In this document: positions 1 to 64,000 of the stretch, piece after piece | Layout of the letters: every line of letters starts with the position of its first letter | Position numbering within the stretch: the first letter of the stretch is position 1 | Assembly (NCBI GenBank): GCA_001599355.1 | Contig: BCGQ01000005.1 | Span: forward strand, 810,222 to 874,221 | Direction: 5' to 3' | Origin: Nakazawaea peltata | Taxonomy: Eukaryota > Ascomycota > Pichiomycetes > Alaninales > Pachysolenaceae | DNA: 64,000 nucleotides | The notes under the pieces: generated by a model | What the model was told of the DNA's origin: nothing | The model's database searches: none | The model's input: only the letters and a program-made list of their open reading frames with translations | Position numbers and translations under genes: made by a program

Positions 1-191
1 TTAGAGTGGCTGCTGGGTTGAGACCTTCAAGACATGGTGGTGTTAGAATTGAGAAAGAGATTGTAGAGGATGGTAAGGTTGTGATTCATAACTACGGAGC
101 TTCGGGCTACGGGTATCAGGCAGGATTTGGTATGGCTAATGATGCTACAGATTTACTTCTTAGTGAGATTTCTATGAGACTGAAATTGTAA
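1..191 (+). CDS. D-amino-acid oxidase, C-terminal fragment (5' end outside window)
   Basis: Only the last 62 or so codons are present. They carry the C-terminal signature of the FAD-dependent D-amino-acid/D-aspartate oxidase family: the 'GLRPSRHGGVRIE' segment, whose Arg binds the substrate carboxylate, and a later 'HNYGASGYGYQAGFG' segment that contacts FAD. These enzymes oxidatively deaminate D-amino acids in peroxisomes. The last four codons are AGA CTG AAA TTG. With the standard code the protein ends RLKL, a weak signal; with CTG = Ala it ends RAKL, and AKL is a canonical type 1 peroxisomal targeting signal. Substrate preference (neutral or acidic D-amino acids) cannot be judged from this fragment. 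The true start lies upstream of base 1. Confidence 0.85.
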   Translation, partial: RVAAGLRPSRHGGVRIEKEIVEDGKVVIHNYGASGYGYQAGFGMANDATDLLLSEISMRLKL

Positions 192-1031
192 GCAGATAGA
201 CAGGCAAACATACACGCAATGGTATTTTTCGTGACATGAATAAACTTTTTCTTCGTTGTGAAGTCATTCTAATTGATCTTGTAAGGAAGGAAGTGACGCA
301 ATCGACGCACCACAACAATAATATTTTCTTTAATTGTGTAATATTCTAATTGATAATTGATAATTGATAATTTGTAATTTCTAGTTCTGTGTGCGTTAAT
401 TGATAAGGTGATACGGTAGGGTATAGGGGTAGGGGTAGGGGTAAGGGTAGGGATGGGAAAATAAATGAAAGGGGTGGAGGGCTGGAGGGCTGGAGGGATG
501 GTGATAGTGATCTATATATTCGTATCTACAATTGATGGTAATACAATAATAAGATTAGTAGTAAAGGTCTTACAGAGGCACCAATATTTCTTTACCCGTG
601 CCACCCCACATCCACTCCTTCTTAATCCCACCCACCATTTAATCCCACCTCTTTTTCTTGTTTCACCCCTTTTAGATTTTTTATCCTTTTTACCTTTTTC
701 TCTCTTCTCACCTTTTCACCCCTTTTCTCCTTCTGCTTTACCCTTTTCTCCTTTTCTGCTTGCCTCTCCTTTCTCCTTTCTCCTTTCTCCTTTTTCCTTT
801 TTCCTTCCCCTTCTACCTCTCCTTTTCCCTACATTTTCGTTCCTTTTCTTCCCCCTTTAATTTCCGTCTCCAAATTTTCCCTCTCTTCTCTCCGGATCGT
901 GCAAAAATCAAATTTTTTAAATCGATCCATCTCTCAATTCACAAATCAACACTTCAATCATAGAGCGCTGGACGCCATACTGAGATCCAAATCTCCACCC
1001 TTCCACATTACACTGTCATTGGATCGTGATA
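192..1031. other. Intergenic: oxidase 3' end to SOG2 promoter
   Basis: No gene is seen in these 840 bases. There is a G-rich run at 419-457 (separate entry) and then a pyrimidine-rich tract from about 590 to 890, made of repeated CTCCTTT-like units, on the sense strand just upstream of SOG2. Two open frames here, at 465-860 and 760-963, translate into Pro/Ser/Phe/Leu-only low complexity and are not credible genes. Confidence 0.7.
419..457 (+). repeat. G-rich telomere-like run (GGGGTA units), G-quadruplex candidate
   Basis: Seven runs of three or four G lie within about 39 bases, separated mostly by TA, TAA or AT. The core is three GGGGTA units followed by GGGTA and GGGAT variants. Loops of two to three bases favour a stable G-quadruplex, and the sequence also resembles yeast telomeric or Tbf1/Rap1-type binding DNA. 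It lies about 575 bp upstream of the SOG2 ATG and 230 bp past the oxidase stop. The function is not known. Confidence 0.6.
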
Positions 1032-62114: not shown

Positions 62115-62531
62115 ATCTAACTTAGACACAATGGCCAGCAATCCTCTGTCTAGATCAAGTGATCAAACATCAGTCAACATCAATCAAAACATCAAGTCAT
62201 CGTGAGCCAAGATGCGCAGGCCAAGCGAGCACAGTTTGCGCCGTTTAAACAGAGCAATCTACAAACTTCCAACCTACGCTCCATCTTGCGCGGCTATCCA
62301 CAGCAATGTACAAGAAAATTCATGTTGATGAGCTGAGCTGAGCTCTCTGTGCTCACTCAGTGCCCGCTCTGTCTCAAACGCGTCTCGCAGCCCCCAAAAT
62401 GTAAACACTGCGCACGAAAAAGGGCCCCTTTTGTTGAGCCAAAAGGGGCGTTAAAATTCATCTAACCGCGGATGATCAACTTCTCCATCACCTATTAACA
62501 CCCAGTACCACTTCAGTACCACTTCCAACTA
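62115..62531. promoter_or_regulatory. Divergent PSH1/DYN1 promoter
   Basis: About 420 bases between head-to-head genes. An ACGCGT word (MluI cell-cycle box core) in AAACGCGTC lies at 62378-62383, about 150 bp before the DYN1 ATG. A GAGCTGAGCTGAGCTC palindromic run is at about 62330-62345. An inverted repeat AAAAGGGGCC...TTTTG / CAAAAGGGGCG lies near 62418-62450. No gene is seen. Confidence 0.45.
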
Positions 62532-64000
62532 ATGGTTCAGGACACAGATACACCCATTGAAACTGCTTCCATCGCAGATTTCATCTTCAAATTATCATCT
62601 GTACTTCTTTCCGCTACTAAAAATGATATAGTCGATTTCAAATCGAAGGAACTGATGGATCATTATGATACTTTCGCCACAGACCCTTCTCAAGCTGGGT
62701 TGTTCATCTACAGGATAGATCAGGCAACAGCGGCTGATACCGAGGAAGCCGCCAATGCTGACGCCGCCGCCGAGTCGCGTCCGAACTTCGTCATCTCCCT
62801 ACAATTGCGCCACCTACCTGACCTGGCGCTAAGCGCCGTTGCATTAATTAAAGAAAGGGGCCCCCTTAGATCCGATCTCGGGCTCGATTCTCAACTCCAA
62901 GTCATAAACTTACCATTATCAACCATCAAGGATAGGAAGAATTCATTCGAGTCGCTTAGGGCTTTGGTCAGTCTTGGAATTGCCCCTTATTTCGATACTT
63001 TATCAGCTAAACTGTTGAACAGTCAAGACCTTGTGGAGGAAGAAGCGGGGAGCGTGGGCGTTACAAGGAAGAAGATCAATGAGTTGCTGTTGTCGTTACA
63101 GCATTTACAACAGACGGTTCAGATACCTGATTTGATAATGAATGTTCATCCCAAGGTGAGGGAAATAGTGAGCTCTGCCAATGGCTCGACCGATCTCATC
63201 CAACTTGTCGACCCCTCCCTTCTAGATGACTCTCTGTTCCTTAATACTCTCCAATCAACAGTAAACAAATGGATAAAATCCGTCCAAGATATCACTCAAT
63301 TGACTCATGACCCTAAAAACGATAACTCAGCGGAAGATGAGATCAATTTTTGGATCTCAATGGAAACTGCTCTCAACAGTATTCAGGAACAGCTTAGACT
63401 GCCCGAGATAACTCTCACTTTAGACATTTTGAAACTGCTGAAAAGATTCCATGCCACTATTGGATTCCTCTCGGATACTGGTATCAAGGAGTCGGTGGGT
63501 GTGGCTCAGAAGTACAATCTGTTATTGAGGGATCTCCCATTAGACGAAATTTTGTCAGCTACCACGTTCAGACGTCTTGACGAGGCAATTATTATTGTTT
63601 TTAATCATTTGAAGAAACTTAGAGTCACCCAATACCCGGTGTCACGTGCCATAGCCCTTGTAGAGGCGATATCTATCGATGTTGAGCATCGAATGAGGTC
63701 TATACTATCACAACTCAATCTCATGGCATTACCTTTGACTCAATTTCAAGATACAATCAGTGAATTAAGTGAATGTTTCGACACATTTGATTCAAATGTC
63801 AAGGAATTCACTAGTTTAGCTCGTGAGTTACTTCGGAAACGTAATGAGAAGTTCATTTTAGTCAAAGTTGATTCAAAAACTATCAATTTAAAAGAAAGAA
63901 TCGAGTATATTTCGAGTTTCCGTCAAAAACATGACGAAATAGCTCAGACTATCGCTAAAATTCAATCGGAAAACAGTCTTATTCCTGATTTGCAGCATGC
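62532..64000 (+). CDS. DYN1: Cytoplasmic dynein heavy chain, N-terminal part (3' end outside window)
   Basis: About 489 codons are visible from the ATG at 62532, open to the window edge. They cover the tail of a dynein heavy chain. The DHC_N1 segment shows 'DLIMNVHPKVREIV', 'LNTLQSTVNKWIKSVQDITQLTHD', then 'EINFWISMETALNSIQEQLRLPEITLTLDILK', 'RFHATIGFLSDTG' and 'LDEAIIIVFNHLKKLRVTQYPVSRAIALVEAIS', the most conserved part of fungal and animal dynein tails. The full protein should be about 4000 residues. In yeast it pulls the spindle into the bud neck. No stop or frame change is seen in the visible part. Confidence 0.93.
   Translation, partial: MVQDTDTPIETASIADFIFKLSSVLLSATKNDIVDFKSKELMDHYDTFATDPSQAGLFIYRIDQATAADTEEAANADAAAESRPNFVISLQLRHLPDLALSAVALIKERGPLRSDLGLDSQLQVINLPLSTIKDRKNSFESLRALVSLGIAPYFDTLSAKLLNSQDLVEEEAGSVGVTRKKINELLLSLQHLQQTVQIPDLIMNVHPKVREIVSSANGSTDLIQLVDPSLLDDSLFLNTLQSTVNKWIKSVQDITQLTHDPKNDNSAEDEINFWISMETALNSIQEQLRLPEITLTLDILKLLKRFHATIGFLSDTGIKESVGVAQKYNLLLRDLPLDEILSATTFRRLDEAIIIVFNHLKKLRVTQYPVSRAIALVEAISIDVEHRMRSILSQLNLMALPLTQFQDTISELSECFDTFDSNVKEFTSLARELLRKRNEKFILVKVDSKTINLKERIEYISSFRQKHDEIAQTIAKIQSENSLIPDLQH

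Follow-up and report, generated by a model that had tools for sequence, protein, structure and literature searches.

Introduction

The CUG-Ala code of budding yeasts (NCBI table 26, order Alaninales), in which the codon CUG, written CTG in DNA, is translated as alanine, was reportedly first described in two 2016 papers. In NCBI, the Alaninales comprise one family containing Pachysolen, Nakazawaea and Peterozyma, and CUG-Ala nuclear decoding is described for the clade of these three genera in the available text of PMC5951914. According to the same text, a 2018 survey, CUG is relatively rare in recoded clades and stands mostly at unconserved sites. In the accessible parts of two further papers, only Leu and Ser were weighed for CUG (PMC4986446) and the five CUG-Ala species were excluded (PMC6701816). 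Here, the in-frame CTG codons of a 64-kb stretch of contig BCGQ01000005.1 (hereafter the window) were analyzed. The window is nuclear yeast DNA of compact organization and holds 33 open reading frames (ORFs) of at least 120 aa, counted from ATG. Judged from its sequence, it very probably (about 0.97) comes from a member of the CUG-Ala clade (order Alaninales), whose CUG codons are read as alanine. The assignment to the clade is made because, in the literature consulted, CUG-Ala nuclear decoding has been reported only from Pachysolen, Nakazawaea and Peterozyma. The code itself is already known, and the window is a further case of it.

Homologue columns opposite CTG

Codon counts were made on 30 ORFs taken as genes (14,381 sense codons; Table 1). 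Ten of these genes were translated with CTG as X and then used in a PDB search, which keeps the alignment unsteered by the chosen residue. Near-duplicates were omitted, leaving 23 of the 35 aligned PDB chains (26 pieces), and the end coordinates were checked with a script. The WD-repeat part of PRP19 (three chains), the short second stretch of 4ye8 (GLN4) and the first part of the second 9dts stretch (DBP9) were also omitted, and the FKS alignment covers seven of the 15 FKS CTG codons. A search for prokaryotic ferrochelatases as additional homologues gave 40 pattern-matching stretches, none of which was confirmed.

The alignments contained 72 CTG columns with 145 opposite residues, namely 55 Ala, 11 Lys, 10 Pro, 9 Gln, 9 Leu, 7 Gly, 6 Ser and fewer of the others. 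For a published tool of similar design, about 8 to 34 columns, depending on the codon, are reported to give more than 95% power (PMC8629427, available text). Among the comparison codons in the same alignments, Ala was opposite GCT in 130 of 241 cases and GCC in 43 of 131, and Leu was opposite TTG in 223 of 356 and CTT in 56 of 79. When BLOSUM62 scores were summed per codon, 59 of the 61 sense codons returned their standard amino acid. Besides CTG, the sole exception was CGC (six columns, K narrowly above R), and in this respect the other sense codons are standard, as in the CUG-Ala clade. For CTG, Ala was the best of the 20 amino acids (+45.2), followed by Ser (−0.9), Gln (−31.2) and Leu (−73.3). 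A bootstrap over columns returned Ala in 1996 of 2000 replicates, and Ala was kept when any one of the ten genes was dropped; it was the top CTG residue in seven of the ten genes taken singly.

Columns were called invariant if at least two homologues were aligned and all agreed. CTG occupied 11 of the 53 invariant-Ala columns and none of the 92 invariant-Leu or 41 invariant-Ser columns. The 15 CTG columns invariant in the homologues comprised these 11 Ala columns (Table 1) plus four others, a single column for each of Lys, Pro, Asn and Arg. Residue 131 of the Nudix protein, one of the 11, is placed by us in what we take to be the Nudix box. At HEM15 residue 268 (4149–4151, minus strand), CTG stands where both 1l8x and 2qd3 carry Pro, and the residue would be Ala under the Ala code.

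A preliminary description of the window had read CTG as alanine from 12 listed codons said to lie at conserved alanines. All 12 were found in frame at the places given, including the minus-strand codons 4230–4232 and 33387–33389. Ten sites were checked column by column, and seven of them stood. The homologues carried only Ala at GLN4 19840 (3/3), GLN4 20032 (3/3), HEM15 4230 (2/2) and CTS1 33387 (2/2), and mostly Ala at PRP19 36106 (3/4), GLN4 20428 (2/3) and DBP9 26273 (2/3). Conservation of Ala was not borne out in the aligned homologues at GLN4 19711 (A/M/T), DBP9 26195 (T/V/A) and DBP9 27209 (S/S/N); note that the DBP9 columns contain other DEAD-box helicases and not true Dbp9 orthologues. 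The two CTG codons in EFM7 (31908 and 31914) were judged by domain score alone (Ala 65.2, Ser 65.1, Leu 61.0). The tabulation of CTG columns against homologues, which the preliminary description had proposed as a check, showed that neither Leu nor Ser dominates the conserved columns.

The standard code, with CTG as leucine and the Ala matches arising by chance, could draw on the nine Leu among the 145 opposite residues and on six proteins whose Pfam scores are slightly to clearly higher with Leu (see below). However, the invariant-Leu columns lack CTG altogether, as had been claimed beforehand, and 78 of the 92 are filled by TTG, TTA, CTT and CTC. In addition, Leu was the majority residue in 268 of 455 columns of the other Leu codons versus 6 of 72 CTG columns (p = 4e-17), and majority-Ala columns were found for 18 of 72 CTG versus 7 of 455 other Leu codons (p = 8e-12). 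On the invariant-Leu and majority-Leu counts, the leucine reading is refuted, and we leave it practically no probability.

Pfam scores and amino acid composition

The 30 proteins were scanned against Pfam three times, once for each reading of CTG: Ala under table 26, Leu under table 1 and Ser under table 12. One family was kept per region (46 rows). A Pfam domain was found in 29 of the 30 ORFs, the exception being 27784–28245. Over 29 proteins, Ala exceeded Leu by 142.0 bits (22 up, 6 down, 1 equal; by domain row 33, 8 and 5) and Ser by 67.9 bits (21 up, 6 down, 2 equal; by domain row 29, 11 and 6). With the five strongest proteins removed, Ala was still ahead by 44.3 bits over Leu and by 29.3 bits over Ser. 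Thus, alanine, as proposed in the preliminary description, is best in the homologue columns and above both rivals in the Pfam scores.

The amino acid composition of the aligned regions was also compared. The homologues contain 6.8% Ala and 9.5% Leu, and the window without CTG contains 5.2% Ala and 9.3% Leu, with CTG making up 1.5%. Reading CTG as Ala matches both percentages because CTG fills the Ala shortfall; read as Leu, it makes Leu overshoot and leaves Ala short of the homologues.

A serine reading, as in the Ser1 or Ser2 clade, has in its favour the second place of Ser in the BLOSUM62 column scores and the six proteins in which Ser scores above Ala. It is opposed by the absence of CTG from invariant-Ser columns, by the six Ser among the 145 opposite residues and by the lead of Ala in the Pfam total; moreover, Ser without CTG is already in excess in the window (8.9% vs. 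7.1% in the homologues). We regard serine as highly improbable. Taken together, the pattern of CTG over the 30 ORFs fits alanine, and both leucine and serine are excluded as its main meaning.

Two tests independent of homologues were of little power. A sequence-context test ranked Gln first and Leu second for CTG, with Ala outside the top six; of 43 control codons it identified just 2 correctly, and it was dropped as uninformative. An equally weak test of adjacency to GCN codons gave 29 of 496 neighbours for CTG, 94 of 1405 for GCN, 123 of 2735 for the other Leu codons and 145 of 2802 for Ser codons.

Deviations from the alanine pattern

Several observations weigh against alanine as the meaning of CTG. 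No tRNA genes were found in the 64 kb of the window with ARAGORN and Rfam, so the decoder of CTG was not seen. The CTG columns of single genes favour I in FKS, P in PRP19 and Q in SEY1. Compared with GCN columns, CTG columns have majority Ala less often (18/72 vs. 112/256, p = 0.004) and majority Leu more often (6/72 vs. 5/256, p = 0.017); the Ala deficit is at p = 0.056 after exclusion of FKS and three gap-edge columns. In the Pfam scores, Leu exceeds Ala in 6 of 29 proteins, namely PWP2 (7.9 bits, the most), MDM12 (2.3 bits), YTP1, PSH1, XLF and JIP5, and Ser exceeds Ala likewise in six, including SEY1 and GET4 by 2.1 bits each and the STK19-like protein (Table 1). The dropped overlapping family PF25174 in PWP2 scores highest with Ser (244.1), then Leu (223.1) and Ala (219.6). 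In the RING protein, Leu is favoured by both the dropped zf-RING_2 (2.4 bits) and the kept zf-C3HC4 (1.1 bits). The SOG2 repeats are divided: the dropped LRR_4 favours Leu (42.2 vs. 40.2), and the dropped LRR_14 and the kept LRR_8 favour Ala.

The small Leu excess would be expected if CUG were mainly Ala and a minority were charged with Leu or another amino acid, giving statistical proteins as in Candida albicans and Ascoidea. Such mixed charging overlaps with the alanine reading, since Ala is the main residue in both. The excess leans on FKS and on gap edges: it is borderline without FKS (4/65 vs. 3/220, p = 0.05), and leaving out three gap-edge columns as well removes its significance (2/62 vs. 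3/220, p = 0.30). Leu was found opposite CTG at PWP2 635 and 661 and FKS 248 and 480, and at the edges of gaps at SEY1 92 and DBP9 89 (one homologue each), CTS1 104 and HEM15 209 (one of two homologues each) and GLN4 148 (one of three). In addition, CTG stands at a fifth of the invariant alanines, where frequent Leu would be costly. Mixed charging is considered unlikely, while being the least improbable of the alternatives; at a low level, it would be compatible with all of the sequence tests.

The residues facing CTG were also compared with those facing GCN. L, M, Q and R make up 21% at CTG versus 6% at GCN columns, and D, E, G, S and T 18% versus 27%. In this exploratory contrast, the gene-stratified p was 0.0002, and 0.0012 and 0.0024 after successive exclusions. 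Among four negative controls, one (GCT vs. other GCN) reached p = 0.04. CTG is at least two substitutions from any GCN codon, and the CTG-Ala sites would have been filled from the mutational neighbours of CTG itself and not from GCN codons. The Ala deficit and Leu excess may reflect this mutational neighbourhood, which stays a suggestion because the positive control, serine AGY versus TCN codons, failed (p = 0.69).

CTG usage and the proposed decoding

The 30 ORFs contain 248 in-frame CTG codons (17.2 per 1000), with at least one in every ORF. CTG ranks second among the Ala codons, of which it makes up 26%, and the relative synonymous codon usage among the five is 1.74 for GCT, 1.30 for CTG, 1.07 for GCC, 0.68 for GCA and 0.21 for GCG. 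Genes that use AGA strongly have a lower CTG share of Ala (rho −0.52, p 0.0035; five correlations, uncorrected). The other four correlations were with the first codon-usage axis (p 0.048), with gene length (p 0.034), with the TTG share (p 0.18) and with GC content at third codon positions (p 0.49). This suggests, and no more, that CTG is not among the preferred codons of highly expressed genes. The lowest shares were found in THR4 (8%) and CTS1 (7%), the two most extreme genes on the first codon-usage axis, and in HEM15 and the DnaJ gene CTG makes up 48% of Ala codons.

Published work on the clade (PMC5951914, available text) describes the mechanism of CUG reassignment, and by analogy CUG would be read here by a tRNA-Ala with an anticodon changed to CAG. 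Such a tRNA would still be charged with alanine because alanyl-tRNA synthetase needs no particular anticodon bases; the ancestral tRNA-Leu(CAG) would have ceased competing. The reassignment looks long complete in this genome, with CTG a regular Ala codon, invariant alanines included. That CTG has fully re-expanded into a mainstream Ala codon whose sites still trace their mutational-neighbour origin is a tentative proposal, to which we give somewhat less than even odds.

Gene set and gene models

Three of the 33 ORFs were left out of the codon counts: 465–860 (low complexity, one CTG) and the antisense ORFs 42867–43259 and 47368–47838 (zero CTG). GLN4, HEM15, SEY1, PRP19 and PWP2 were named by PDB and Pfam matches, and the names DBP9 and EFM7-like were taken from the preliminary description. 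The designations MDM12-, JIP5-, GIP2-, COQ11-, SNF12-, CTR86-, YIH1-, RCF2- and PSH1-like are our presumptive assignments.

Table 1. CTG codons at invariant alanines and the ORFs counted as genes (scores are Pfam bits with CTG as Ala, Leu or Ser).
Feature	Position (bp)	Strand	CTG codons	Remarks
CTG, HEM15 residue 67	4752–4754	-		Ala in 1l8x, 2qd3
CTG, HEM15 residue 146	4515–4517	-		Ala in 1l8x, 2qd3
CTG, HEM15 residue 241	4230–4232	-		Ala in 1l8x, 2qd3; in preliminary description
CTG, HEM15 residue 295	4068–4070	-		Ala in 1l8x, 2qd3
CTG, DnaJ protein residue 36	7412–7414	+		Ala in four J-domains
CTG, DnaJ protein residue 44	7436–7438	+		Ala in four J-domains
CTG, Nudix protein residue 131	15395–15397	-		Ala in 7aui (DDP1), 3mcf
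CTG, GLN4 residue 278	19840–19842	+		Ala in 4h3s, 8uk6, 4ye8; in preliminary description
CTG, GLN4 residue 342	20032–20034	+		Ala in 4h3s, 8uk6, 4ye8; in preliminary description
CTG, DBP9 residue 406	27260–27262	+		Ala in 5ivl, 1hv8, 9dts
CTG, CTS1 residue 296	33387–33389	-		Ala in 2uy2, 9hj7; in preliminary description
SOG2	1032–3701	+	27	SOG2 domain: Ala 201.1, Leu 184.6, Ser 196.4
HEM15 (ferrochelatase)	3810–4952	-	13	Ala 328.6, Leu 308.5, Ser 319.0
MDM12-like (MMM1 domain)	5757–6701	+	4	Leu 39.6, Ala 37.3
DnaJ-domain	7307–8164	+	10	Ala 79.1, Leu 72.3, Ser 75.7
SWT1	8562–9998	+	14	PIN_4: Ala 115.2, Leu 98.7, Ser 109.3
XLF-domain	10025–11092	-	5	Leu 44.8, Ala 44.0, Ser 43.2
SEY1	11393–13720	-	12	Ser above Ala by 0.8 and 1.3 (two domains)
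GET4	14043–14972	+	5	Ser 189.4, Ala 187.3
Nudix (DDP1-like)	15047–15787	-	5	Ala 60.1, Leu 52.0, Ser 54.6
WD-repeat (JIP5-like)	15840–17294	+	7	No clear preference
GLN4 (glutaminyl-tRNA synthetase)	19009–21417	+	9	
CBM21-domain (GIP2-like)	23341–25032	+	13	Domain score unaffected by CTG
DBP9 (DEAD-box helicase)	26045–27769	+	14	
ATG-ORF within second exon of COQ11-like gene	27784–28245	-	3	No Pfam match
DUF202	29873–30391	+	3	
EFM7-like methyltransferase	31650–32402	+	4	
CTS1 (chitinase)	32583–34274	-	5	
PRP19	35788–37281	+	11	
ENTH-domain	37506–38429	+	6	Ala 117.3, Leu 113.2, Ser 113.3
STK19-like	39146–40168	+	6	Ser 111.5, Ala 109.9, Leu 108.0
SWIB-domain (SNF12-like)	40165–41646	-	6	
THR4 (threonine synthase)	42048–43553	-	3	
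Atx10-like (CTR86-like)	43803–45242	-	6	
PWP2	45406–48150	-	7	Six aligned sites vs. chain 5wlc_LO: 3 Ala, 2 Leu, 1 Gln
MPP6	48557–49066	+	4	
YIH1-like (RWD + UPF0029)	49096–49989	-	8	
FKS-family, from internal ATG	50167–55131	-	15	Ala not preferred over Leu
YTP1-like	56031–57896	-	8	
HIG1-domain (RCF2-like)	59916–60605	-	7	
RING (PSH1-like)	61248–62114	-	8	Leu slightly above Ala

Some gene models may be extended. The FKS-family gene appears to start upstream of the internal ATG at 55131, as its frame is open to 55476 (minus strand). A putative small intron seen by eye (GTGAGT 55484–55479, CTAAC 55446–55442, AG ending at 55428) would, by hand count, join this frame to an upstream exon with ATG 55677 (region 55677–55427). 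The COQ11-like gene (28640–27784, minus strand) has an apparent first exon from ATG 28640, followed by a putative 50-base intron (GTAAGT 28542–28537, CACTAAC 28508–28502, AG ending at 28493), and its longer frame gives a weak NAD_binding_4 match. The branch-site-like motifs of both introns are of the CTAAC type; the branch site of S. cerevisiae is a strict TACTAAC. The neighbouring DUF202 domains at 29285–29662 and 29873–30391 (plus strand) resemble a tandem duplication, and a possible start of the first DUF202 gene lies in another frame (28917–29243), as an intron or frameshift would give. The 5′ part of a dynein heavy chain gene that runs off the window lies at 62499–63998 (plus strand; DHC_N1, 132.5 bits); the 500 codons present, which are outside the counts, include 9 in-frame CTG and 35 GCN. 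A perfect 11-base tandem repeat of 4.7 copies was found between PWP2 and MPP6 (48351–48402).

Comparison with known codes

Under the standard code, about 1.7% of codons in this genome would be mistranslated (248 of the 14,381 counted), with consequences for gene annotation, for predicted structures and for heterologous expression. With hundreds of CTG sites per 100 kb, such a yeast is also useful for studying the evolution of the code. In the literature text consulted, no CTG frequency for Nakazawaea or Peterozyma was found; supplements and the 2016 original papers may well record it.

The window agrees with the CUG-Ala code of table 26 in that CTG is Ala, the other codons are standard and the genes are nuclear genes of a budding yeast. 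Phylogenetically, the CUG-Ala clade stands next to the Leu2 clade of Pichiaceae. A yeast outside the Alaninales, with CUG independently reassigned to Ala, might account for codon usage unlike the published description of recoded clades. However, only one CUG-Ala clade occurs among the 52 yeasts surveyed in PMC5951914, and, according to its heading, a Codetta analysis of 462 yeast species confirms where CUG reassignment was already known to occur (PMC8629427), as far as the available text of both sources goes. An independent origin is thus held to be very unlikely, and membership of the known CUG-Ala clade is preferred.

Among other codes, the CUG-Ser orders Serinales and Ascoideales have the same codon reassigned in budding yeasts. 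In the window, serine is rejected, and the CTG avoidance described for these orders in the accessible part of PMC11540330 is not seen. In the mitochondria of Ashbya, CUU and CUA are read as Ala (PMC3874161, available text); Leu-box codons are read as Ala in both cases, and the Ashbya case differs in being mitochondrial and in involving other codons. Compared with published descriptions of the CUG-Ala code, CTG is common in the window and also stands at invariant alanines. This free use at conserved sites would be an example of what can follow complete reassignment, in contrast to a rare, sidelined codon. The difference from published accounts is quantitative, and the free use of CTG, conserved sites included, is the sole part that merits a specialist's second look.

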